The notes beneath the pieces are model-generated. The model was given only the letters and a program-made list of their open reading frames with translations, made no database searches and had not been told where the DNA came from. This document shows, piece after piece, positions 116 to 10,817 of a stretch of 20,126 nucleotides of DNA. Both the position numbers and the translations under genes were made by a program. Origin of the DNA: a virus; the IMG/VR virus record IMGVR_UViG_3300030329_000900, positions 1-20,126 of that record; one strand, given 5' to 3'. Position 1 is the stretch's first letter; each line of letters opens with the position of its first letter.

Positions 116-553
116 ATGGCAATAACATCGGCAATTTGCACAAGTTTTAAACAAGAAATTTTAGTTGGCACACACAATTTTACAGCTACAAGTGGAGACA
201 CTTTTAAAATAGCTTTATTTACAAGTGATGCAACTTTAGGGGCAAGCACAACTGCTTATGCAACTTCAAATGAAATTACAAACTCATCTGGAACTGCATA
301 TACTGCAGGAGGTGCAACTTTAACAAGTGTTACACCAACAACTTCTGGAACCACTGCATTTTGTGATTTTGCAGACGTAAGTTATACCTCAGCATCTTTT
401 ACAGCTAATGGTGCATTAATTTATAATGATGATCAATCTGATAAAGCTGTTGCTGTTATTGCTTTTGGTGGTGACAAAACAGTTTCTTCTGGAACTTTTA
501 CAATTCAATTCCCAACAGCAGACGCATCTAACGCAATCATTCGTATAGCATAA
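116..553 (+). CDS. Small putative virion structural protein, 145 aa
   Basis: A GGAG sequence 8 bases before the ATG (in taGGAGataaaatATG) supports this start. The protein is rich in Ala, Thr and Ser, has no membrane segment or signal peptide, and looks all-beta. It has the layout of a small protein I associate with marine phage structural blocks: TFKIALFTSDATL near residue 30, a TAGGATL turn near 63, DFADVSYTSA near 84, GALIYND near 99, and a closing GTFTIQFPTADASNAIIRIA. This resemblance is from memory. A capsid-decoration, head-fibre or tail role is possible, and the sequence does not decide between them. Its stop codon lies inside a hairpin that covers the start site of the next gene, which suggests translational coupling. 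Confidence 0.7.
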   Translation: MAITSAICTSFKQEILVGTHNFTATSGDTFKIALFTSDATLGASTTAYATSNEITNSSGTAYTAGGATLTSVTPTTSGTTAFCDFADVSYTSASFTANGALIYNDDQSDKAVAVIAFGGDKTVSSGTFTIQFPTADASNAIIRIA

Positions 554-569
554 GGAGGATCTCCTTATG
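549..569 (+). promoter_or_regulatory. Perfect 9-bp hairpin burying the RBS and start codon of the gene at 567
   Basis: Bases 549-557 (CATAAGGAG) are the exact reverse complement of 561-569 (CTCCTTATG), with a 3-base loop GAT at 558-560. The left arm holds the stop codon of the upstream gene (551-553) and the AAGGAG Shine-Dalgarno. The right arm ends in the ATG of the downstream gene. If the RNA folds this way, ribosomes cannot start the second gene until one terminating on the first melts the stem. There is no T-run after it, so it does not look like an intrinsic terminator. Confidence 0.65.
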
Positions 570-1868
570 GCTAATTCTTGGAACGAGTCAGGAACAACCT
601 GGAGCACCGGACGTTGGGGCACAACTGACGCTATAACAAGTGGTTGGGGTGCTGACGCTTGGAATACTGGTGGTTCATGGGGACAAGCTACCGATGAATT
701 AGCTTTATTAACTGGTGTATCTGCAACTTTTTCTATAGGTGAAATAATATCAGGATCAAACACAGGTTGGGGTAGAGACTTTTGGGGTGAAGAACCCTGG
801 GGCGAAAGTTTTGATCCAGTAGTAACTCTCGATAGTTTATCAGCAACAATATCTTTAGGTGATGCAGAAGCATTTAACGAAAGAGGTTGGGGAAGACTTT
901 CTTGGGGTCAAGCTGATTGGAACGAAGGCAGCGATGAAACTGTATCTATTTCAGGTGTAGAAGCAACAGCCTCCATAGGAAGTATAACTCCAGCTTTCAC
1001 ATATTTATTAGAAGTAGGTCCTGCATTTAAAATGACAGGAGAAGTCGGTGATGTTGGTTTAGGTTTAGGTATTAACGTTTCAGGTGTAGAATCAACTTTT
1101 GCAACACCAACTATAGGTTATGTTGGTCATACTGTTGGTTGGGGTAGAAATGAATGGGGAGAAGATAGTTGGGGTGAAAGTCCAGATGAAGTCATTACTT
1201 TGGTTGGTAGAAGCATTGAGTCTTTTATATCAGCTAATAACAGTTGGGGTGAAAGCACATGGAATAATGACGATGTTTGGGGAGGAACATTTGATGTAAA
1301 TATAAAAACAGCTTATGATTTATCTGGTCAAGAAGCAACAACAAATGTTGGTAGTGTAGATTTTGTAATTAGTCCAACAATTTCTTTAACTGGTGTATCT
1401 TCTACAGTTAATTTAGGAACGTTAGGATTAGAATTTGGTCCAGCAGCTATTAGTGGTGTGGCTGCAACAACAAATGTTGGAACTTTAGGTTTAGAATTTG
1501 GACCTGCAGAAATAACAGGTGTTGAAGCAACAGTAAGTATTGGAACTTTAAACGTTGGACCTATTTCTTTAATAGATTTAACAGGTGTTTCAGCAACCTC
1601 CTCTGTTGGTTCTTTAACACCAGCTGATGTTATGGGATTAACTGGAGTATCTTCAACAAGTTCTGTAGGTGCTTTAACACCAGCAGATGTAGTAGGTTTA
1701 ACTGGAGTTTTATCAACTACATTTTTAGGACAAATAACAACAATACCTCTTTACGGTGATGTTGACACCGGTTCAAATTCATCATATAGTACAACAGCAA
1801 CAGGATCTAATAGTAGTATTTCTGGGGTTGCAACTGGATCAAATACAAGTTATAGTGACGTAGCATAG
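567..1868 (+). CDS. Repeat-rich phage structural protein with Trp-Gly motifs, 433 aa
   Basis: Start at 567 is supported by an AAGGAGG Shine-Dalgarno. The N-terminal half carries Trp-Gly-rich units such as GWGRDFWGEEPWGE, GWGRLSWGQADWNE and GWGRNEWGEDSWGE, with less regular ones at the very N-terminus and around residue 225. From about residue 48 onward it has some eleven copies of a short unit of the form [LIV]-[ST]-G-[VQ]-x-[SA]-T-x-x-[VIL]-G, most regular in the C-terminal half. It ends with three TGSN[ST]S-type repeats. The pattern suggests stacked beta-strands, as in tail fibres or spikes, but no catalytic motif is visible. It lies directly before a tail-fibre-like gene, so a tail or tail-fibre-associated virion protein is the best inference; exact function is unknown. 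A GWG...SWG motif reappears in the protein encoded at 8607. Confidence 0.7.
   Translation: MANSWNESGTTWSTGRWGTTDAITSGWGADAWNTGGSWGQATDELALLTGVSATFSIGEIISGSNTGWGRDFWGEEPWGESFDPVVTLDSLSATISLGDAEAFNERGWGRLSWGQADWNEGSDETVSISGVEATASIGSITPAFTYLLEVGPAFKMTGEVGDVGLGLGINVSGVESTFATPTIGYVGHTVGWGRNEWGEDSWGESPDEVITLVGRSIESFISANNSWGESTWNNDDVWGGTFDVNIKTAYDLSGQEATTNVGSVDFVISPTISLTGVSSTVNLGTLGLEFGPAAISGVAATTNVGTLGLEFGPAEITGVEATVSIGTLNVGPISLIDLTGVSATSSVGSLTPADVMGLTGVSSTSSVGALTPADVVGLTGVLSTTFLGQITTIPLYGDVDTGSNSSYSTTATGSNSSISGVATGSNTSYSDVA
1420..1720 (+). repeat. Tandem coding repeats in the Trp-Gly/beta-repeat gene
   Basis: Neighbouring units remain similar at the DNA level. Two units read LGTLGLEFGPA followed by [AE]I[ST]GV (around 1417-1455 and 1480-1520), and two read LTPADV[MV]GLTGV (around 1614-1650 and 1674-1710). 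Synonymous differences between copies show they are not brand-new duplications. Such repeats can expand or contract by recombination. Confidence 0.6.
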
Positions 1869-1878
1869 GAGAAAAAAT

Positions 1879-3261
1879 ATGGCATCAACATACACACCTC
1901 TAGGTGTAGAACTTCAAGCAACTGGTGAAAACGCCGGTACATGGGGAACTAAAACAAATACTAATTTACAAATTATAGAACAAATTTCTGGTGGATACAC
2001 AACACAAGCAGTAACAAGTGGTGGCACAGTTAATTTATCTGTTTCAGATGGATCAACTGGAGCAACTTTATCTCACAGAATGATTGAGTTTACAGGGTCG
2101 TTATCTGACAATGCAGTTGTTACGATACCTTTAGATGTTCAAACTTTTTATTTTTTAAGAAATTCAACTTCAGGATCATACACAGTTCAATTTAAATATG
2201 TAACTGGTTCAGGAGACTCATTTACTTTTGCAGCAGGTGATAAAGGCGATGCTCTTGTATTTGCAACTGCAAATGATGGAACTAACCCAGACATTGATAC
2301 TTTACCAGCTGGTAACGTAACACTTACTGGAACACAAACTTTAACAAACAAAACTTTAACTTCACCTAAAATTGGAACTTCTATTTTAGATACAAATGGA
2401 AATGAAATAGCTTTAGTAACTGCAACAAGTTCTGCAGTAAACGAATTTACAATAGCAAACGCTGCTACAGGAAATGATCCAACATTATCTGCAACAGGTG
2501 GTGATTCAAATATTGACATAGCTATTAAACCAAAAGGGACTGGTGAAACTGTTTTTGGAACAGGAGCCGCTGCTGCAACTATTACAACAAGTGGAGCAAA
2601 TGATTTAGTTTTAGACACAAACAGTGGAACAAACTCTGGAACTATTACAATTACAGATGCAGCTAATGGAGATATAACTATTGCTCCTAATGGAACTGGA
2701 CAAGCTAAAGCAGTGGACGCTGCTGATGCTACAGGTGCAATTAAAATTGCTGGAAAAGAAACTATATGGGTGCCAGCTGTTGCCATGTATGCTAATTCCA
2801 CTAATGGTGCATCGGCAGAACAAGTAGAATTATCAAATGGTCCAGAAATTAAAGTATTAGATTTTGACAAAGATACTGATGAGTTTGCGCAGTTTGCTGT
2901 AGCATTTCCTAAATCATGGAATGCAGGAACAGTAACTTTTCAAGCTTTTTTTACAGCAACATCCACAGACACAGGAACTACAGCATGGGGATTATCCGCT
3001 GTAGCTTTAGCTGATAGTGGAGATTTAAATACAGCATTTGGAACACAAGTCGTTGCAACAGCAAAAGCACACAGTGGAACATCAAATGATTTAGATGTTG
3101 CTGCTGAAAGTGGAGCAGTTACAATAGCAGGATCACCTGGTGCGGATGAATATGTTTTCTTTCAAGTATCAAGAGACGTTTCAGCAGATAATTTAAATGC
3201 TGACGCAAGATTACTTGGAATTAAATTATTCTTTACAACTAGTGCTGCTAACGACGCATAA
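1879..3261 (+). CDS. Tail-fibre-like protein, 460 aa
   Basis: A GGAG Shine-Dalgarno overlaps the end of the previous gene (taGGAGaaaaaatATG). The N-terminus (MASTYTPLGVELQATGENAG, then TWGTKTNTNLQIIEQ) is typical, as I recall, of marine phage fibre proteins and would attach to the virion. Residues about 147-165 contain the widespread fibre repeat TLTGTQTLTNKTLTSPKI. The middle is rich in Thr, Gly, Asn and Asp beta-strand units (NDLVLDTNSG, NGDITIAPNG). From about residue 293 a separate globular domain starts with IWVPAVAMYAN and ends with GIKLFFTTSAANDA; I recall similar C-terminal domains in marine phage proteins and expect it to be a distal receptor-binding or trimerisation domain. Virion location and fibre role are well supported; receptor specificity is unknown. 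Confidence 0.8.
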   Translation: MASTYTPLGVELQATGENAGTWGTKTNTNLQIIEQISGGYTTQAVTSGGTVNLSVSDGSTGATLSHRMIEFTGSLSDNAVVTIPLDVQTFYFLRNSTSGSYTVQFKYVTGSGDSFTFAAGDKGDALVFATANDGTNPDIDTLPAGNVTLTGTQTLTNKTLTSPKIGTSILDTNGNEIALVTATSSAVNEFTIANAATGNDPTLSATGGDSNIDIAIKPKGTGETVFGTGAAAATITTSGANDLVLDTNSGTNSGTITITDAANGDITIAPNGTGQAKAVDAADATGAIKIAGKETIWVPAVAMYANSTNGASAEQVELSNGPEIKVLDFDKDTDEFAQFAVAFPKSWNAGTVTFQAFFTATSTDTGTTAWGLSAVALADSGDLNTAFGTQVVATAKAHSGTSNDLDVAAESGAVTIAGSPGADEYVFFQVSRDVSADNLNADARLLGIKLFFTTSAANDA

Positions 3262-3273
3262 GGAGAATAAAGA

Positions 3274-4134
3274 ATGAAAAAAATCGACTTTCCTTTAACA
3301 GTCGAAGGTAAAGGACAAAAAAATAAAATATCTCGTAGAGGTAAATCTTTTGGTTATCAAATTTTAGGATTCGGTTCCGGCGGTAGCGCAGGACCTTATG
3401 TAATACCTTCAATCTTAGTTGTAGCTGGCGGTGGCTCTGGCGGTGTAGATGGAGGGGGTTTCACCGGTGGTGGCGGTGGCGGAGGCGGTATGAGAATTGC
3501 CTCTTGTATTGAGGTTTCTCCTGGAGTAGCTTTAACTGTTACTATAGGTGCTGGAGGCAGTAAATCAAATGCTGAGCACGGATCTTGTCAAAGTGGAAAA
3601 CCTTCTAATTATTCTGGTTGTGGAGTAACAACTTTTCAATCTGCCGGCGGAGGTGGTGGCGGAACTCATGCTAGCGTTAATGGATTTGACGGTGGATCTG
3701 GAGGCGGAGCCGGTTCCGGCGGTAGCGCAGGTCAAGGAAATACACCTTCTACAAGTCCATCTCAAGGTGCCGATGGCGGAGGCGCTGGCGGCGGCGGAGG
3801 CGGCGGAGGAGCCCAAGGACAGTGTGGTCATAATTCGGGTTGTGGAGGACATGGTACAGCAGATTCAATAACAGGCTCTTCAGTTACTTATGCTGGAGGA
3901 GGTGCCGGAGGAAATTCTAGTACTAAGGGAAATGGAACTTTAGGACAGGGAGGTCACGGAAAACCTGGGGGAGGTGCAGGATCTGGAGCTGGCGGAAATG
4001 GTAGTTCTGGAGTGGTTATATTTAAAATTCCAACAGCAAATTATTCAGGAACAACCACTGGATGTCCTACTGTAACTACATCTGGTTGTTTTACGATTGT
4101 TCAATATGAAGGATCAGGAAGTCTAACAACTTAA
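3274..4134 (+). CDS. Glycine-rich adhesin-like tail protein, 286 aa
   Basis: Start follows a good Shine-Dalgarno (taaGGAGaataaagATG). After a basic N-terminus (about residues 1-28) the protein turns into glycine-rich low complexity from about residue 33 to 250, with runs of eight or more glycines interrupted by short beta-like inserts (MRIASCIEVSPGVALTVTIG near 73). The C-terminus after GSSGVVIFKIPT is non-repetitive. The layout matches glycine-rich domains at the tips of phage fibres, including polyglycine adhesins, where loops between glycine segments contact the receptor. It has seven cysteines, which is notable for such a protein. There is no regular Gly-X-Y periodicity, so it is not a collagen. 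It lies between a fibre gene and a putative modification cassette, making it a possible substrate; that link is inference only. GC content is higher than that of its neighbours because of glycine codons. Confidence 0.75.
   Translation: MKKIDFPLTVEGKGQKNKISRRGKSFGYQILGFGSGGSAGPYVIPSILVVAGGGSGGVDGGGFTGGGGGGGGMRIASCIEVSPGVALTVTIGAGGSKSNAEHGSCQSGKPSNYSGCGVTTFQSAGGGGGGTHASVNGFDGGSGGGAGSGGSAGQGNTPSTSPSQGADGGGAGGGGGGGGAQGQCGHNSGCGGHGTADSITGSSVTYAGGGAGGNSSTKGNGTLGQGGHGKPGGGAGSGAGGNGSSGVVIFKIPTANYSGTTTGCPTVTTSGCFTIVQYEGSGSLTT
3372..3392 (+). repeat. 21-base direct repeat, copy 1
   Basis: The sequence CGGTTCCGGCGGTAGCGCAG plus one further G is found identically at 3711-3731. Both copies are in the same reading frame and encode GSGGSAG. 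The copies are 339 bases (113 codons) apart. Confidence 0.85.
3711..3731 (+). repeat. 21-base direct repeat, copy 2
   Basis: Exact second copy of 3372-3392, in frame with it within the glycine-rich gene. Recombination between the copies would remove 113 codons without shifting the frame. Confidence 0.85.
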
Positions 4135-4138
4135 AATT

Positions 4139-4657
4139 ATGGCACATTTTGCAAAAATAAATTCAAGTAATACTGTTATAGAGGTTATTAAAGTAATGAA
4201 TGGAGTTTTACTTGATGATGAAGGAAATGAAGTAGAACAAAAAGGAATAGATTTTTGTAAATCTTTGTATGGTCAGAACACTAGATGGGTCCAATGTTCT
4301 TGGAACACAGATAAAGGTGTTCATTATACACAAGAAACAGATGAAACTGGATCTTTAATTCCAAGTGCCGATCAATCAAAAGCTTTAAGAAAAAATTTTC
4401 CTGACCCAGGATGTACTTACGATCCAGAAAGAGATGCTTTTTTATTTGTAAAAGTTTTTCCTTCTTGGGTTTTAAATGAAACTACATGTGATTGGGATTA
4501 TCCTGTGGCTAAACCTAGTTATGATTGGGATACTGAGAGACCAGATTGGGATGAGGAAAATCAAAAGTGGAATGTAGTTTCTAAGGACACACCACCTCCC
4601 GATTATTCTTCATATAAAAAAGCAGCAAAAGCCGCATTAAACATGACCGACGACTAA
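4139..4657 (+). CDS. MAHFA-type conserved marine phage protein, 172 aa
   Basis: The start MAHFAKINSSNTVIEVI, then GIDFCKSLYG, then a segment RKNFPDPGCTYDPERDAFLF and a Trp-rich C-terminal part (FPSWVLNETTCDWDYPVAKP, then two W-D-rich stretches ending in KWNVV) match, from memory, a protein family frequent near tail genes of cyanophages and other marine phages. The order Y-[DE]-x-x-R-D-A-F followed by PSW-x-L-[ND] is its most recognisable part. Function is unestablished; a tail-associated virion protein is likely from position. There is no Shine-Dalgarno in the 4-base gap after the adhesin gene, so it probably depends on translational coupling. The following gap holds a promoter-like element, so this seems to be the last gene of the fibre module. 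Confidence 0.75.
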   Translation: MAHFAKINSSNTVIEVIKVMNGVLLDDEGNEVEQKGIDFCKSLYGQNTRWVQCSWNTDKGVHYTQETDETGSLIPSADQSKALRKNFPDPGCTYDPERDAFLFVKVFPSWVLNETTCDWDYPVAKPSYDWDTERPDWDEENQKWNVVSKDTPPPDYSSYKKAAKAALNMTDD

Positions 4658-4694: not shown

Positions 4695-5225
4695 ATGTAT
4701 AGAAAGTTTATAGACAAAGTTAAAAATCACAAAAAAATAAAAGACAAACTATTAAACTTGATTGATAAAAGTCCATCAGGAAAAATTAATTCTTTTTTTG
4801 AAAAAACTGAAAAGTCAGATTTTGATATAAAAATGAAAGATAAAACTTATGTTAATGAAGTGGTGTCTAACATAGCACCGATTATGAATAATTTAGCACG
4901 TAAACTTAATGCTAAACACTGGGAAATACATCATATGTGGTGTCAATCATATTTAAAAGGTCATTACCATAAATGGCATACTCATCCCATGTCTCATTTT
5001 GCACACATTTATTACTTAGACCTTCCTGAAAAAAATATGATTACAGAATTTAAGGACGAAAAAGGAGTAAAAGCAAAAGAAGGGGATATCATAACTTTCC
5101 CGGCTTTTCTTTTTCACAGGTCAAAACCTAATACTTCAAAAAAAAGAAAAACAGTTATATCATTTAACTCCAGTATTTTTTGGTATCATAAGTATCCAGA
5201 TTGGTTAAGGGGAGAAAAAAAATGA
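4695..5225 (+). CDS. 2OG-Fe(II) oxygenase-like protein, subtype A, HxH variant, 176 aa
   Basis: First gene of the seven-gene cassette. The core runs from W82 to about residue 160: WCQSYLKGHYHKWHTHP, a strand with IYYLDLPE, then KEGDIITFPAFLFHRSKP and RKTVISFN. This is the double-stranded beta-helix pattern of the 2OG-Fe(II) oxygenase superfamily and most resembles the putative 2OG-FeII_Oxy_5 group. Candidate metal ligands are H95, H97 and H141, with R151 as the 2-oxoglutarate-binding arginine. Position 97 is His where most family enzymes have Asp or Glu, so activity should not be assumed. The N-terminal 75 residues are lysine-rich and helical-looking. The start follows AGGA closely. The gene ends in an ATGA overlap with the next. 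Substrate unknown. Confidence 0.75.
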   Translation: MYRKFIDKVKNHKKIKDKLLNLIDKSPSGKINSFFEKTEKSDFDIKMKDKTYVNEVVSNIAPIMNNLARKLNAKHWEIHHMWCQSYLKGHYHKWHTHPMSHFAHIYYLDLPEKNMITEFKDEKGVKAKEGDIITFPAFLFHRSKPNTSKKRKTVISFNSSIFWYHKYPDWLRGEKK

Positions 5226-5770
5226 AACTTATTTACAAAGTAAAAGGGGCTTACTCTAAATCCTCTTGTAAAAAATTAATTAAATGGTTTGAAGATAATA
5301 AAAACCTTTCTAAGCCAGGAGTAGGAGGAGAAAATACAACATTAAATAATTTAGAAATTGCTATAGAAATTAGAACAAATAAATGTTTTTTTAATTTAGG
5401 CAAAACTTTAACTACTTCTATTAATAAATTTAAAAAACATTATCCCGAAACTGATCGTTATTTAGAAAAATGGTCTGTTGACAGTATAGCTCAGGTAATG
5501 AAATATGAACCAAATCAGTATTATAATTTTCTTCATTGTGAAAATGGTGGGGTACCAAAGAATATAAAAAGAGTTTTTGCATGGATGATTTTTTTGAATA
5601 CTATTAAGAAAGGCGGCGGCACTAAATTTTTGTATCAAAAATTTACAGCTACACCTAAAGAAGGTGATTTTTATATTTGGCCTGCTGGTTGGTCTCATTT
5701 TCATAAAGGAGTAAATGCTCCCAAAGAAACAAAATATATTTTAACAGGTTGGTGTAGTTATTTAATATGA
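5222..5770 (+). CDS. 2OG-Fe(II) oxygenase, prolyl-4-hydroxylase-like, subtype B, 182 aa
   Basis: I chose the ATG at 5222 rather than an in-frame one at 5201: it has GGGGAG 8 bases upstream and forms an ATGA overlap with the previous stop, while 5201 lies well inside the previous gene. The N-terminus KLIYKVKGAYSKSSCKKLIK fits the start of this family. Motifs in this numbering: H105-C-E107 (FLHCENGG) as the first two metal ligands, a strand WMIFLNTIKKGGGTKF, then KEGDFYIWPAGWSHFHKG with H159 as the third ligand, and K171 in TKYILTGW as the likely 2-oxoglutarate anchor, as in prolyl 4-hydroxylases, which use Lys. All key residues are present, so it could be active. It is related to the gene at 7452, which shares the H-[KR]-G...-[KR]-Y-I-[LI]-T-G ending. 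Confidence 0.82.
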   Translation: MKLIYKVKGAYSKSSCKKLIKWFEDNKNLSKPGVGGENTTLNNLEIAIEIRTNKCFFNLGKTLTTSINKFKKHYPETDRYLEKWSVDSIAQVMKYEPNQYYNFLHCENGGVPKNIKRVFAWMIFLNTIKKGGGTKFLYQKFTATPKEGDFYIWPAGWSHFHKGVNAPKETKYILTGWCSYLI

Positions 5771-6243
5771 ATATATATAAAAATTTTATAGACAAAAAAA
5801 TATGTAAACAAATAAATAAAACTATGTTAAGTGTTGATTTCCCTTGGTTTTATAGAAAAAATCAAACTACTGGCGATAGTTCTTTTTTATACCATGTTTT
5901 TTTTGCAAACGATAAATTAAATTCTTATTTATATTATTTAATAGAACCATTAGTTAAAAAATTAAACCCATCTAAATTGGTAAACATAAGAGCTAATTTA
6001 TGTTTAAAAAGACCTATGAAATCTAACTGGCATATTGATTTTGATAAATTAAAATTAACACCTAAAAGTAAAACAGCCATATATTATGTAAATACCAACA
6101 ATGGTTACACTATTTTTAAAAATAAAAAAATAAGATCTGAAGCAAATAAAATGATTGTTTTTAACGGAGACACTATGCATAAAGTAAAATATCAAACAGA
6201 CAAGGATGCTAGAATAGTTATTAATTTTAGATATGAAGTTTAA
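5767..6243 (+). CDS. 2OG-Fe(II) oxygenase-like protein, short subtype C, 158 aa
   Basis: Overlaps the previous gene by 4 bases (ATGA). Begins MNIYKNFIDKKICKQI, typical of the N-terminal helix of phage 2OG oxygenases. The catalytic pattern is complete: H89-I-D91 in NWHIDF, a strand AIYYVNTNNGYTIF that fits the beta-helix core, H138 in FNGDTMHKV, and R149 in KDARIVINFR, 11 residues after the distal His. At 158 residues it is short for the superfamily but spans the core. It is paralogous to the gene at 6948, with which it shares [AV]-x-[YS]-VNTNNG, the xFPxx[FY] segment near residue 25 and the [DN]-AR-I end. Substrate unknown. Confidence 0.8.
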   Translation: MNIYKNFIDKKICKQINKTMLSVDFPWFYRKNQTTGDSSFLYHVFFANDKLNSYLYYLIEPLVKKLNPSKLVNIRANLCLKRPMKSNWHIDFDKLKLTPKSKTAIYYVNTNNGYTIFKNKKIRSEANKMIVFNGDTMHKVKYQTDKDARIVINFRYEV

Positions 6244-6958
6244 TAATATGAAACAAGGATACCCTCAAGAATTGTTAATAACTGAATATTTTAAATGTCC
6301 AATATGGACAGCTAAAGTACCTCATATGGTAAAGTCTTTAAATAAAGCTTCCGAAAAATATATAAAAGACTCACAAAAAAGAAGTAAAAAACAAATAGAT
6401 ACAAGAAATAAAAAATATGGTAATAAAAAAGATGCTGGGTGGGTATTTCACTCTACAAGCATTATGAAAGACGAAAAGTTTTTACAATTAGAAGAATACA
6501 TACGACACACTTCTAATAATCTTTTACATGAAATGGGTTTTAATTTAAGTGGTTTTGAAGTTCAAACTCAAGAGATGTGGGTGCAAGAGTTTTCTAGAAA
6601 TGGAGGTGGGTCTCATACTCTGCATACTCATTGGAATGGACATATATCTGGTTTTCTTTTTTTAAAGTGTAGTCCCGAAACTTCAATGCCTGTTTTTGAA
6701 GATCCAAGACCCGGTGCATTAATGAATGGTTTACCACAATTAGATTTTAATAAAATAACTTACTCAACTACTCAAGTTCATTTTAAAGTAGTTCCTGGTG
6801 ATATGATATTTTTTCCATCTTATATGCCACATCAGTACCCAGTAGATATTGGTTATAAACCTTTTAGATTTATTCATTGGAATGTTCAAGCAGTTCCTAA
6901 ACCAGAAGGTTTAGGACAGGTTTCTTCAACTTCGTATTTTAATAATTATGAAAAATAA
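6233..6958 (+). CDS. 2OG-Fe(II) oxygenase-like protein, subtype A (2OG-FeII_Oxy_5-like), 241 aa
   Basis: The longest cassette member. It has the layout I associate with 2OG-FeII_Oxy_5: an N-terminal CPIWTAKVP segment near residue 22, MWVQEFSRNGGGSHTLHTHW, GHISGFLFLKC, FEDPRPGA near 155, then VPGDMIFFPSYMPHQYPV and FRFIHWNVQA. Candidate ligands are H131, H133 and H200, with R212 as the 2-oxoglutarate contact; like the gene at 4695 it has HxH instead of HxD/E. The start is uncertain: ATG at 6233 overlaps the previous gene by 11 bases, while an in-frame ATG at 6248 (codon 6) follows the TAA after 4 bases. Neither has a clear Shine-Dalgarno. Confidence 0.8.
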   Translation: MKFNNMKQGYPQELLITEYFKCPIWTAKVPHMVKSLNKASEKYIKDSQKRSKKQIDTRNKKYGNKKDAGWVFHSTSIMKDEKFLQLEEYIRHTSNNLLHEMGFNLSGFEVQTQEMWVQEFSRNGGGSHTLHTHWNGHISGFLFLKCSPETSMPVFEDPRPGALMNGLPQLDFNKITYSTTQVHFKVVPGDMIFFPSYMPHQYPVDIGYKPFRFIHWNVQAVPKPEGLGQVSSTSYFNNYEK

Positions 6959-7448
6959 ATCTACATTATCAATTAAAACAATTAAAAATTTTTTACCCGA
7001 TCAAATTTTTAAAGAAATACAAAACATACTTTTTAGTGAAAGTTTTCCTTACTATTTTGTAAATTATGTAGTTAATGCTGATGATCGTTCTGATTATTTT
7101 TTTACTCATCACTTATTACATGAAAAAGGATCTAGTGCATATTTTAATAAAATATTAGCTCCTTTAATTGGTAGACTTACTTTTAACAGATTAACAAGAG
7201 CTAAAATTAATTTTTATACCAAAAAACATAAATTTATTAAAACCGCATACCATGTAGATTCTAAAAATCCTCATTTTGTTGCTTTATACTCTGTCAATAC
7301 AAATAATGGTTTTACTCAATTAGAAAATGGACCCACTCTTCCTTCGATTGAAAATACTATGCATATATTTGATGGTAGTCTTAAACATTGTAGCGTGGCT
7401 CAAACTGATACAAATGCTAGAATTAACATTAATATAAATTTATTATAA
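6948..7448 (+). CDS. 2OG-Fe(II) oxygenase-like protein, short subtype C, 166 aa
   Basis: Overlaps the previous gene by 11 bases; no other in-frame ATG occurs before residue 138, so this start is forced. Paralogue of the gene at 5767: IKTIKNFLPDQIFKEI at the N-terminus, SFPYYF near residue 32, then AYHVDSKNPHFVALYSVNTN and an ARININ end. Metal-ligand candidates are H102, D104 and H147 (SLKHCS), with R158 binding 2-oxoglutarate; all are present at normal spacing. The paralogues differ at many positions, so the duplication is old or the two copies were acquired separately. Function and substrate are unknown. Confidence 0.78.
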   Translation: MKNKSTLSIKTIKNFLPDQIFKEIQNILFSESFPYYFVNYVVNADDRSDYFFTHHLLHEKGSSAYFNKILAPLIGRLTFNRLTRAKINFYTKKHKFIKTAYHVDSKNPHFVALYSVNTNNGFTQLENGPTLPSIENTMHIFDGSLKHCSVAQTDTNARINININLL

Positions 7449-7451
7449 TTC

Positions 7452-7964
7452 ATGAAAAATTTTACTTATTTAAAAGATAATTTTTTAAGTTCTAAGTCAT
7501 GCACAAGTTTAATAAAAAAATTTAAAGATGATGTAAGACGTGGAGAAAAAGAGTATCACGGATATTTGGCTAAAGATTTAGAAAACACTGTAGAGTATTT
7601 AAAGCTTCATAAAAAGCTTACTCCTTTCTTAAAAAAATATGTAGATAAATTTCCAGAAATTAATTTTACAGCAGATGTTTGGGGAATTACTAATATGCGT
7701 TTTAAATTATTTAAACCTGGACAATCTTTTGAGAGATGGCATTCAGAGCATAGTTTTGATTATTCAACTAGGTTATTAAATATAATGATATATCTAACAG
7801 AACATAATTGTGGCACAGAATTTTTTAATGGAGATTATATAAAATCAGAAATTGGTAGGCTAGTTATTTTTCCATCTTACTTTACTCATACTCACAGAGG
7901 ACAGAAATGTCCTAATAATAAAACTAGGTATATTATTACCGGTTATGTTAATTTTATAAAATAA
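7452..7964 (+). CDS. 2OG-Fe(II) oxygenase, prolyl-4-hydroxylase-like, subtype B, 170 aa
   Basis: Starts 3 bases after the previous stop, without a clear Shine-Dalgarno. Core motifs are strong: RFKLFKPGQSFERWHSEHSF with H97 and E99 as ligands, RLLNIMIYLTEHNCGTEFF as the central strands, EIGRLVIFPSYFTHTHRG with H146 as third ligand, and R159 in TRYIITGYVNF as the 2-oxoglutarate contact. The W-H-x-E-H and F-P-x-x-x-T-H-T-H-R-G motifs are, as I recall, common in phage members of the prolyl-hydroxylase-like clade. Its order of features matches the gene at 5222. The enzyme is likely to be catalytically competent; possible targets include protein side chains, but the sequence does not show which. 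Confidence 0.84.
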   Translation: MKNFTYLKDNFLSSKSCTSLIKKFKDDVRRGEKEYHGYLAKDLENTVEYLKLHKKLTPFLKKYVDKFPEINFTADVWGITNMRFKLFKPGQSFERWHSEHSFDYSTRLLNIMIYLTEHNCGTEFFNGDYIKSEIGRLVIFPSYFTHTHRGQKCPNNKTRYIITGYVNFIK

Positions 7965-7968
7965 AAAA

Positions 7969-8541
7969 ATGGATATAGCTACTCCTGTAAAACATTGGTA
8001 TTGGTTTTTTGAAAATCTGTATACACCTAAAGAAATTAATCTTTTAAATAAAAAAATTAAAAAAAATTTACTTAATTTAAAAGATAACCCAGCCACGGGT
8101 GTGATTAAAACTTCTAAAGTTTCTATTTTTAATCCATCTAATATGCCAGAATTAGATCGAGTTTTTCAATGTATACATAAAGCAAATCGTTTTAATTTTG
8201 GTTTTTATTTATTTGATTCTGTAGATGAAAAAAGACTTCCACTTAATTATAATGTTTATGATTCTAAGACTAAAGCGGAATATAAGTATCATACAGATGG
8301 ACAGTATGAAAATCCCATAGCAGATACTAAGTTAACATCCATTTTAAATTTATCTACTTCTTCTTACAAAGGTGGAGAATTTTATATAAACCCTTTTGGA
8401 AAAGAGCACCTAGTTCCTCAAATTTCTAAACCCGGAACTTTGCTTGTTTTTCCATCTTCGTTTTTTCACAAAGTTACCCCTGTTATAGAGGGTAAACGAA
8501 TAACTGTAAGCATTTGGTCAAAAGGGCCCAAGTTTAGATAA
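7969..8541 (+). CDS. 2OG-Fe(II) oxygenase, PKHD/PiuC-like, subtype D, 190 aa
   Basis: The last cassette gene, 4 bases after the previous stop. It has the clearest match to the P4Hc/PKHD-type hydroxylase fold: WYWFFENLYTPKEINLLNKK at the N-terminus, EYKYHTDGQYENP with H108 and D110 as iron ligands, TKLTSILNLSTSSYKGGEFY, then KPGTLLVFPSSFFHKVTPV with H167 and EGKRITVSIWSKGP with R177 binding 2-oxoglutarate. The spacing of 10 between H167 and R177 and the S-x-W-x-x-GP ending are typical of this type. Similar enzymes are, from memory, common in cyanophages, where their targets are unknown. No promoter-like sequence precedes it, and a promoter-like element follows, so it closes the operon. Confidence 0.88.
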   Translation: MDIATPVKHWYWFFENLYTPKEINLLNKKIKKNLLNLKDNPATGVIKTSKVSIFNPSNMPELDRVFQCIHKANRFNFGFYLFDSVDEKRLPLNYNVYDSKTKAEYKYHTDGQYENPIADTKLTSILNLSTSSYKGGEFYINPFGKEHLVPQISKPGTLLVFPSSFFHKVTPVIEGKRITVSIWSKGPKFR

Positions 8542-8606: not shown

Positions 8607-10817
8607 ATGCTACAAAAAATAGGTTTTCAACCTGGTATTAATAAACAAATCACACCTACAGGAGCTGAAGGACAATGGGTAGACTGTGATAATGTTCGTT
8701 TTAGATATGGTACACCAGAAAAAATAGGTGGTTGGAATCAATTAGGTGGATCTGGATCTAATGAATTAACAGGTGCGGGTAGAGGAATGCATCAATTTAT
8801 TAACAGTTTATCTAGAAAATATTCTATTATAGGAACTAACAGAATTTTATATGCATACTCAGGTGATGTTTTTTATGACATACACCCTATTAAATCTACA
8901 ACAACGCTTACAAGTGCATTTACCACGACTAATGGATCACCAACAGTAACTATTACTTTTAGCACATCTCATGGTATTAACCCTCAAGACATAATATTGT
9001 TAGATAATTTTTCTACAATTACAAATTCTAACTTCGGTGCTTCTGATTTTGATGATAAAAAATTTATGGTAACGACAGTGCCAACAGCCACAACTCTTAC
9101 AATTACCATGCCTTCAAATGAAACAGGTAGTGGCGCTACAACATCAGGCGGTATTAGAGTGCAACACTATTATCCTGTAGGACCAGCAGTGCAAGCAAAA
9201 GGTTTTGGTTGGGGTTTAGGTTCTTGGGGTGGTGAAGATACATCTGCAATTACTACAACTTTAAATGGAGCATTATTAGATGATACTGCAGGAACAGGTG
9301 GCTCAGGAACTTCTATAACTTTAACAGATGCTTCACAGTTTCCAAGTTCAGGAACTAATTTTATACAAGTTGGTAATGAAGAAATATCTTATACAGGTGT
9401 TTCTGGAAATAATTTAACAGGAATTACAAGAGCGGTTAGAAATTCTACAAGGTCTGCACACTCTGATGGAGCTACAGTTACAAACTCAACTGATTATGTT
9501 GCATGGGGTGAAGCTGCATCAGGAGACTTAGTGCTTGAACCAGGAATGTGGTCACTAGATAATTTTGGTGATAAAGCAATTTGTTTAATACATGATGGTG
9601 CGTGTTTTTCTTGGGACTCAAGTTTATCTAACGCAACAGAAACAAGAGCAGCAATTATATCAGGTGCACCTACTGCATCAAGACATATGATTGTATCTAC
9701 ACCGGATCGTCACTTAGTATTCTTTGGAACAGAGACAACTATTGGAACCACATCTACACAAGACAATATGTTTATTAGATTCTCGGACCAAGAAGATATA
9801 AATACTTATACACCTACAGCAACCAACACAGCTGGCACACAAAGACTAGCTGATGGATCAGAAATTAGAGGAGCAATCAGAGGTAGGGATGCAATTTATG
9901 TTTGGACTGATACAGCGTTATTTACACAACGTTTTGTTGGTCAACCATTTACGTTTGCGTTTGCACAAGTAGGGACTAACTGTGGACTTCTTGGACAGAA
10001 CGCATGTGTAGAGGTTGATGGTGCAGCTTATTGGATGTCAGAGAATGGTTTCTTTAGATATGCTGGTAAATTAGAATCATTACCGTGTTTGGTAGAGGAT
10101 TTTGTATTTGATGATATAAATATTGATTCTGGTAATCAAATGGTATCTGCTGGATTAAATAATTTGTTTGGTGAAGTAATATGGTTTTATCCACAATCTT
10201 CATCGTCAGTTGTAAATAGAATGGTTGCATATAATTATTTTGATTCATCACCACAAAGACCAGTGTGGACTGTCGGTAGTTTAGCGAGAACTATATGGAG
10301 AGACTCTGCTGTATTTGGTAAACCACACGCTTTAGAATATGATGCAGACACTGATACATCTTTTGATGTGGTAGGTAACACTGAGGGTAGAACAAGTTAC
10401 TATGAACACGAAACAGGGACTGATCAAAATAGAAATGGAACTATAAGTGCAATTACTGCAAATATTTTATCTGGAGATTTTGATATCACACAAGCAAGAG
10501 CACAAGGAACAGGAAAAGTTACAGGTGTTGCAACATTTAGAGGAGATGGTGAGTTCTTAATGAAAATTAGAAGATTTATACCTGACTTTATTTCACAGAC
10601 TGGCACTACTAGAGTTACATTAAATTTACGAAACTTTCCAAATGATTCGGCAGCTAGTTCATCACTTGGACCTTTTGATATTACAACTTCTACTCAAAAA
10701 GTAGACACACGTGCAAGAGCTAGAGCAATAGCTTTAAAAGTGGAAAATACATCAACAAGTCAAAACTGGAAGTTGGGAACTTTTAGATTAGACACACAAC
10801 CAGACGGAAGAAGATAA
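8607..10817 (+). CDS. Large tail or DNA-stabilisation-like virion protein, 736 aa
   Basis: The start MLQKIGFQPGINKQITPTGA followed by WVDCDNVRFRYGTPEKIGGW is a pattern I know from many marine phage genomes. After it come GAGRGMHQF and a strand-turn layout (IIGTNRILYAYSGDVF, later DRHLVFFGTE, DAIYVWTDTALFTQRF and AAYWMSENGFFRYAG) that looks like a beta-propeller, as in tail hub or packaged-DNA stabilisation proteins of P22 gp10 type; that parallel is inference. Around residues 225-292 lies an insert (TSITLTDASQFPSSGTNFI, EISYTGVSGNNLTGITRAVR) that resembles a small beta domain seen in other phage proteins. A GWGLGSWGGED motif near residue 203 echoes the repeats in the gene at 567. No strong Shine-Dalgarno precedes the ATG. 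Confidence 0.75.
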   Translation: MLQKIGFQPGINKQITPTGAEGQWVDCDNVRFRYGTPEKIGGWNQLGGSGSNELTGAGRGMHQFINSLSRKYSIIGTNRILYAYSGDVFYDIHPIKSTTTLTSAFTTTNGSPTVTITFSTSHGINPQDIILLDNFSTITNSNFGASDFDDKKFMVTTVPTATTLTITMPSNETGSGATTSGGIRVQHYYPVGPAVQAKGFGWGLGSWGGEDTSAITTTLNGALLDDTAGTGGSGTSITLTDASQFPSSGTNFIQVGNEEISYTGVSGNNLTGITRAVRNSTRSAHSDGATVTNSTDYVAWGEAASGDLVLEPGMWSLDNFGDKAICLIHDGACFSWDSSLSNATETRAAIISGAPTASRHMIVSTPDRHLVFFGTETTIGTTSTQDNMFIRFSDQEDINTYTPTATNTAGTQRLADGSEIRGAIRGRDAIYVWTDTALFTQRFVGQPFTFAFAQVGTNCGLLGQNACVEVDGAAYWMSENGFFRYAGKLESLPCLVEDFVFDDINIDSGNQMVSAGLNNLFGEVIWFYPQSSSSVVNRMVAYNYFDSSPQRPVWTVGSLARTIWRDSAVFGKPHALEYDADTDTSFDVVGNTEGRTSYYEHETGTDQNRNGTISAITANILSGDFDITQARAQGTGKVTGVATFRGDGEFLMKIRRFIPDFISQTGTTRVTLNLRNFPNDSAASSSLGPFDITTSTQKVDTRARARAIALKVENTSTSQNWKLGTFRLDTQPDGRR

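Follow-up and report, generated by a model that had tools for sequence, protein, structure and literature searches.

Seven consecutive oxygenase genes beside the tail-fibre tip

The window analysed here, a 20,126-base virus record (IMG/VR IMGVR_UViG_3300030329_000900), contains at positions 4695-8541 seven consecutive open reading frames (ORFs), g1 to g7, spaced by −11 to +4 bases. They lie between the fibre-tip genes and the gene for a virion protein resembling the P22 gp10 stabilisation/head-closure protein, which is called the anchor below (Table 1). A preliminary description made from the sequence alone had proposed that these tightly packed genes encode seven 2-oxoglutarate (2OG)/Fe(II) oxygenases situated between the fibre-tip genes and the next tail gene, and both the identity and the arrangement were borne out. 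In profile searches with all seven proteins, each matched a 2OG-type PHROG with E values from 1e-19 to 8e-41 (in gene order phrog_81, 61, 274, 81, 274, 61 and 61), and six matched Pfam families, PF13759 for g1 and g4 and PF13640 for g2, g3, g6 and g7. Five proteins exceeded the curated Pfam cut-off, g3 stayed under it, and g5 had no match in the Pfam scan. The curated TIGR02466 score of 62.5 bits was missed by g4 (60.9 bits) and g1 (47.3 bits), and g7 scored 42.7 bits against the PKHD-type equivalogs of NCBIfam (YbiX/PiuC), short of their curated cut-off of 143 bits.

The start of g2 is most likely the ATG at 5222, rather than the TTG at 5201, because of the AGGGGAG ribosome site and the ATGA overlap with g1; a 97% identical copy of this gene is present on another contig (L003). 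The array products are small and mostly prolyl-hydroxylase-like, and their location is most likely cytoplasmic; inspection by eye found no signal-peptide-like N-termini among them.

Table 1. Genes of the oxygenase array and its surroundings in the window
Feature	Coordinates	Strand	Evidence
g1, 2OG oxygenase, 2OG-FeII_Oxy_5 type, H-T-H-P...H	4695..5225	+	PF13759 46 bits; phrog_81 E 7e-25; motif
g2, 2OG oxygenase, 2OG-FeII_Oxy_3 type, H-C-E...H	5222..5770	+	PF13640; phrog_61 E 2e-28
g3, 2OG oxygenase, phrog_274 (apparently mislabelled DNA endonuclease V), H-I-D...H...R	5767..6243	+	phrog_274 E 8e-41; PF13640 E 2e-4
g4, 2OG oxygenase, 2OG-FeII_Oxy_5/TIGR02466 type, H-T-H...H (HTHW), core 'H' class	6233..6958	+	PF13759 45 bits; AlphaFold; invariant residues
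g5, 2OG oxygenase, phrog_274 family, H-V-D...H...R	6948..7448	+	phrog_274 E 4e-36; AlphaFold; invariant residues
g6, 2OG oxygenase, 2OG-FeII_Oxy_3 type, H-S-E...H	7452..7964	+	PF13640 29.7 bits; phrog_61 E 2e-22
g7, 2OG oxygenase, PKHD/PiuC-like, H-T-D...H	7969..8541	+	PF13640 43 bits; phrog_61; PKHD-type Fe2+ dioxygenase models; PDB 3dkq E 2e-6; PiuC 9ghl
Anchor, virion structural (P22 gp10-like stabilisation/head-closure) protein, array right border	8607..10817	+	phrog_3287 E 3e-96
P gene, usual left border of array in relatives	4139..4657	+	phrog_7759
Glycine-rich tail/fibre-tip protein, island start	3274..4134	+	Pfam Gly_rich_2 E 3e-9; phrog_2295
Upstream conserved flank, tail-associated genes 116-553, 567-1868 and 1879-3261 (fibre-like)	116..3261	+	phrog_644, phrog_31104 (the latter for 1879-3261)

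Fold and metal-binding residues

Structures were predicted for g4 and g5, and the fold of the other five proteins was taken from profiles. The AlphaFold model of g5 (pLDDT 94.3) is a double-stranded beta-helix that superimposes on PHD2 with Z 15.8 and 2.7 Å across 147 residues; that of g4 (pLDDT 90.6) is likewise a double-stranded beta-helix, matching the PF13759 structures 3bvc and 2rg4 with Z of about 20 (20.4 for 3bvc). Among the closest solved folds are those of enzymes that hydroxylate proteins and peptides, namely PHD2, the Pseudomonas putida prolyl hydroxylase solved with EF-Tu, and a viral collagen hydroxylase. Every profile and fold test thus fitted 2OG oxygenases, with no model lacking the beta-helix and no group of genes placed in unrelated families; the seven array genes have the 2OG/Fe(II) oxygenase fold, and their family identity is confirmed.

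A full H-x-[DE]...H...[RK] set, attributed to five of the genes in the preliminary description, was found in exactly five: g2 (HCE), g3 (HID), g5 (HVD), g6 (HSE) and g7 (HTD). The other two, g1 (HTHP) and g4 (HTHW), carry H-x-H...H in place of the triad with its canonical D/E, and despite this they still exceed the PF13759 cut-off. Within the g5 family, H102, D104, T123 and H147 are invariant and R158 nearly so, and within the g4 family H131, H133, H200 and N217 are invariant. Among 128 cluster representatives of related proteins (see below), the motif is retained in 121, as H-x-H in 64, H-x-D in 52 and H-x-E in 5. The motif is thus no chance occurrence, and its retention indicates selection for catalysis. 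Judging from these conserved ligands, the array enzymes are likely to be catalytically competent.

A fixed slot with changing content

The anchor gene was used, without regard to oxygenases, to fetch 80 IMG/VR loci, which represent the nearest relatives instead of being sampled at random. A g2 search and phage records supplied additional loci; the loci are metagenomic fragments. Hidden Markov models (HMMs) seeded from each of the seven proteins and grown over the related loci merged into one superfamily of 490 ORFs, 360 of which were matched by all seven HMMs. Independent scans of the 128 representatives agreed with this: phrog_81 was matched by 81, phrog_274 by 64 and phrog_61 by 32 of them, and PF13759 by 69 and PF13640 by 59.

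At least one such gene was found upstream of the anchor in 94 of the 96 anchor loci. In the 46 loci holding both borders, the arrays comprise 1 to 11 genes with a median of 5, these lengths being upper values where weaker members (the 'ferrochelatase' class and the degenerate class 'd' described below) are counted; HTVC023P has five array genes. Seven oxygenase genes in a row, which had been thought unusual, are thus unusual against phages in general but not within this group.

The content of the slot is almost wholly different even between phages whose flanking genes share about 90% identity. Among the closest relatives the flanks are kept (the gene at 116 up to 97% identical, the anchor 89-94%), whereas the array genes are unrelated or 24-49% similar, most of those in the window being absent or at 26-40%; one of the few exceptions is g4, at 62% in L033. 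Clusters at 40% identity were still accumulating, from 26 in 10 loci to 117 in 94 loci. Since the glycine-rich fibre-tip gene at 3274-4134 also turns over among relatives, the variable island consists of the fibre tip, the P gene and the array.

The genes within one array are not copies of each other. None of 912 same-array pairs was at least 40% identical, compared with 47 expected (range 32-71) when genes were dealt randomly with near-identical loci retained in the shuffle. Recent tandem duplication was rejected as the origin of the arrays, as no same-array pair reached 40% identity even though, for 86% of the genes, a relative at that level exists at a different locus. A search of cellular genome contigs with g4 gave no relative that would point to a cellular origin. 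Certain classes recur in a fixed order, d-C-(g2)-(k)-H-F, and in HTVC033P this C-H-F set follows structural and tail-fibre genes; in the window array, H is represented by g4 and the g2 class is present, whereas C and F are absent. Altogether, the array is one version of a hypervariable, non-redundant oxygenase island beside the tail-fibre tip genes.

In four loci (L035, L050, L056 and L112), the oxygenase genes and the structural genes are on opposite strands, so the island is able to invert or to be driven by a promoter of its own.

Annotation labels within the superfamily

Members of phrog_274, which is labelled 'DNA endonuclease V', have in this analysis an invariant H-x-D...H and a near-invariant Arg. 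T4 DenV glycosylase has an all-helical fold. We rejected a DNA endonuclease V identity for phrog_274, as the g5 model is a PHD2-type beta-helix with HxD...H and is not all-helical; by this model, the label looks wrong for the g3-g5 family. Relatives of g3 occur in 256 phage records, e.g., KC465899 (HTVC008M) and GU075905 (P-HM2), and are often annotated as DNA endonuclease V or denV.

In the 'ferrochelatase' class of cultured pelagiphages (L036:5253-5891 and 67 similar ORFs; phrog_2954/3531), an HxD and HWR pattern is conserved, and Pfam gave no ferrochelatase hit at E 1. Aligned by hhalign, the profile of this class matched that of the g4 oxygenases across the beta-helix core, including HxD and the distal H (probability 63%, E 7e-5), and among solved structures it gave at most weak matches to Tet-like dioxygenases (E 0.06). 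By these profile comparisons, 'ferrochelatase' looks like a misnomer for one more 2OG-type protein. Class 'd' (L006:2053-2556 and 16 similar ORFs), located beside the P gene, is conserved and has lost both catalytic histidines; it aligned with the g5 family (hhalign probability 55%, E 1e-4) and looks like a 2OG-fold relative, possibly a structural pseudo-enzyme. The DNA endonuclease V and ferrochelatase labels on these apparently 2OG-type proteins are apt to mislead annotation.

Tailoring enzymes among the arrays of sister phages

In sister phages the arrays are interrupted by other genes, including those for Nod-like O-carbamoyltransferases (8 loci), tryptophan (Trp) halogenases (8 loci), sulfotransferases, an O-methyltransferase-like protein and JmjC/cupin proteins, as well as a second P gene and tail collar or glycine-rich tail genes. 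One interrupter family is assigned to phrog_1644, labelled minor coat protein. Examples of an O-carbamoyltransferase, a Trp halogenase, sulfotransferases and a methyltransferase inside or beside sister arrays are found at L052:6612-7955, L032:8234-9751, L038:5685-6500, L037:9396-9995 and L037:6421-7005. This company suggests a tailoring island that combines side-chain hydroxylation with enzymes able to decorate such sites.

Possible hydroxylation of tail proteins and alternative explanations

We consider tail proteins of the virion the first-choice substrate because the enzymes are most likely cytoplasmic and in this window are encoded in a virion gene block, protein and peptide hydroxylases are among their closest solved folds, and the slot lies beside the fibre tip; this position is common to the window, HTVC023P-type phages generally, HTVC033P and cyanophage S-SCSM1. 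Tentatively, then, the island's oxygenases may hydroxylate tail proteins before assembly, which is a plausible explanation though not one that we would call probable. Using O2, 2OG and Fe(II), each enzyme would probably hydroxylate its own residue or site on a phage protein produced alongside it, with the tail or fibre proteins encoded next door as the most likely target. The O-carbamoyltransferases, sulfotransferases, methyltransferase and Trp halogenases of sister phages could add groups at such sites, and exchange of the enzymes would diversify tip chemistry in the way that fibre genes diversify tip sequence. A fuller version, in which swapped sets of hydroxylases and these tailoring enzymes together decorate the phage's own tail-tip proteins in a combinatorial manner before assembly, varying host recognition by chemistry as well as by sequence, is possible but rather unlikely. 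Of the substrates named in the preliminary description (a virion protein, a host surface component or a nucleotide), a virion protein is the best supported and the one that we infer. As to its suggestion of sequential hydroxylation, enzymes that work in parallel on specific sites are a better match than one ordered pathway to the changing content and the absence of close paralogues.

Several results weigh against tail proteins as substrates, and our confidence is not higher because the test for coupling to the fibre was negative. Array content did not co-vary with the adjacent fibre gene (partial rank correlation 0.04, with 155 of 500 permutations as high), in a test that is weak since the fibre gene was chosen by rule as the longest ORF in the 2.5 kb preceding P; the correlation with the P gene was 0.15, with 38 of 500 permutations as high, and no coupling of array content to the backbone was found. 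The presence of a halogenase was unlinked to how much Trp the neighbouring proteins contain. We found no proteomic record of modifications on virion residues, and the published transcriptome text gives no timing for the array genes. The three oxygenase genes of HTVC027P are on the opposite strand, so co-transcription with the virion genes is not universal. Finally, the 2OG fold also fits small-molecule and nucleic-acid oxygenases.

The independence of array content from the neighbouring fibre also speaks for a takeover of the host, in which the enzymes would hydroxylate proteins of the host, for example EF-Tu or those of the ribosome, and the virion block would be just the place where late cargo can insert; the P. 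putida enzyme solved with EF-Tu is among the nearest folds. However, ribosomal proteins and EF-Tu are conserved, an open set of >100 enzyme types, differing from one near relative to the next, is unexpected for such targets, and the position among virion genes suggests late expression, which together make this account unlikely.

Ranking below it, we consider that the oxygenases might hydroxylate bases of DNA or nucleotides, which carbamoyltransferases or other enzymes would then decorate to evade restriction. A phage carbamoyltransferase is reportedly tied to cytosine modification, the 'ferrochelatase' class has its weak Tet-like matches, and phage P-HM2 has two such genes beside dam. No array family ranks as TET/JBP or AlkB, however, no cytosine methyltransferase was present among the array interrupters scanned, and we know of no system in which a Trp halogenase or sulfotransferase modifies bases. 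The known thymidine hypermodification genes of the group adjoin PolA, not the array (PMC9599517).

Lower again stands a role at the cell envelope, with host glycans, peptidoglycan or small metabolites altered so as to change the cell surface and block superinfection. Carbamoyl-, sulfo- and methyltransferases do act on glycans in known systems, and glycosyltransferases are encoded downstream of the anchor in HTVC023P and HTVC027P, but the closest solved relatives are largely peptide and protein hydroxylases, and five to eleven non-redundant oxygenases exceed the needs of known glycan pathways. A metabolic role, whereby 2OG consumption resets nitrogen or carbon signalling in the host, has been proposed for cyanophages (Sullivan 2010, PMC3037559) and seems improbable here: one enzyme would suffice, leaving the diversity, the non-redundancy and the fibre-side slot unexplained. 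That the fold serves as a non-catalytic structural or binding module of the virion, as the conservation of class 'd' and the minor coat protein label of phrog_1644 might suggest, is very improbable given metal ligands kept in nearly all representatives, and 2OG oxygenases are not named among virion proteins in the S-SCSM1 proteome text.

If tail proteins are hydroxylated and decorated, the host range of the commonest ocean phages would depend on chemistry invisible to genome comparison restricted to fibres. The question is directly testable, as HTVC023P and HTVC027P are in culture.

Relation to known systems

Expansions of 2OG oxygenases in HTVC023P-type phages and in cyanophages, and Fe(II) oxygenases in marine variable islands, are already known. 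Wittmers et al. 2022 (PMC9599517) reported eight 2OG types in HTVC023P-type pelagiphages, 'nearby (although not adjacent)', and saw an iron-linked partner in ferrochelatase. Those auxiliary metabolic genes belong to the same phage group and superfamily as the window array, each genome having several non-orthologous ones adjoining 'ferrochelatase' genes; in contrast, the genes described here are strictly adjacent, >100 types were found, and 'ferrochelatase' itself looks 2OG-type. The halogenase, carbamoyltransferase and sulfotransferase go unmentioned in that study.

Cyanophage S-SCSM1 (PMC9602691) encodes 24 2OG oxygenases with a highest mutual identity of 44%. As in the window, divergent oxygenases lie beside tail-fibre genes, some of them by ORF number consecutive (ORF240-243) or nearly so (ORF248, 249 and 251). 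Unlike the window, S-SCSM1 is a T4-like phage with a 229 kb genome in which the genes are partly scattered, and they were interpreted as host-metabolism genes. In marine phages, oxygenases rank with the most frequent named genes of metaviromic islands (PMC3909814), where they are listed under host recognition; these islands are likewise variable, with fibre genes and Fe(II)-dependent oxygenases, but the oxygenases are listed singly, and arrays, order and chemistry are not covered. PKHD-type/PiuC and PHD2-like prolyl hydroxylases share the fold and ligand set of g5, and the g7 sequence resembles PiuC and 3dkq; the sequence identity of g5 to prolyl hydroxylases is about 12-18%, and g7 stays under the curated PKHD cut-offs. 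Within the literature searched, contiguous arrays as the rule, their non-redundancy and turnover, and the company of tailoring enzymes are apparently new.

Flanking genes and minor features

The window probably represents a genome fragment from a relative of the HTVC023P-type pelagiphages. Its anchor is 46-48% identical to the genes of HTVC027P, HTVC023P and 023Pt_psg01; the PolA, helicase and capsid genes used as markers for HTVC023P-type phylogeny fall outside the 20 kb fragment, and assignment to a SAR11 host rests solely on similarity to cultured relatives. In the upstream flank, median identity to relatives is 82% for gene 116-553, 39% for 567-1868 and 71% for 1879-3261. The tail-associated protein of 567-1868 carries GWGxxxWGxxxWG repeats and contains 4.2% Trp and 15% Gly. 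The fibre-tip gene 3274-4134 has homologues in just 4 related loci, and the P gene forms the left border in about half of the loci.

The array has a G+C content of 25-29%, compared with about 30-47% in the rest of the window. No tRNA genes were found in the window, and promoter-like sites in the array showed no excess over shuffled sequence. Terminator-like sites numbered 5, compared with 1.7 in shuffles, and just one is a strong hairpin; it lies within g4 on the + strand (6895-6916) and consists of 9 pairs followed by a short T-rich stretch.

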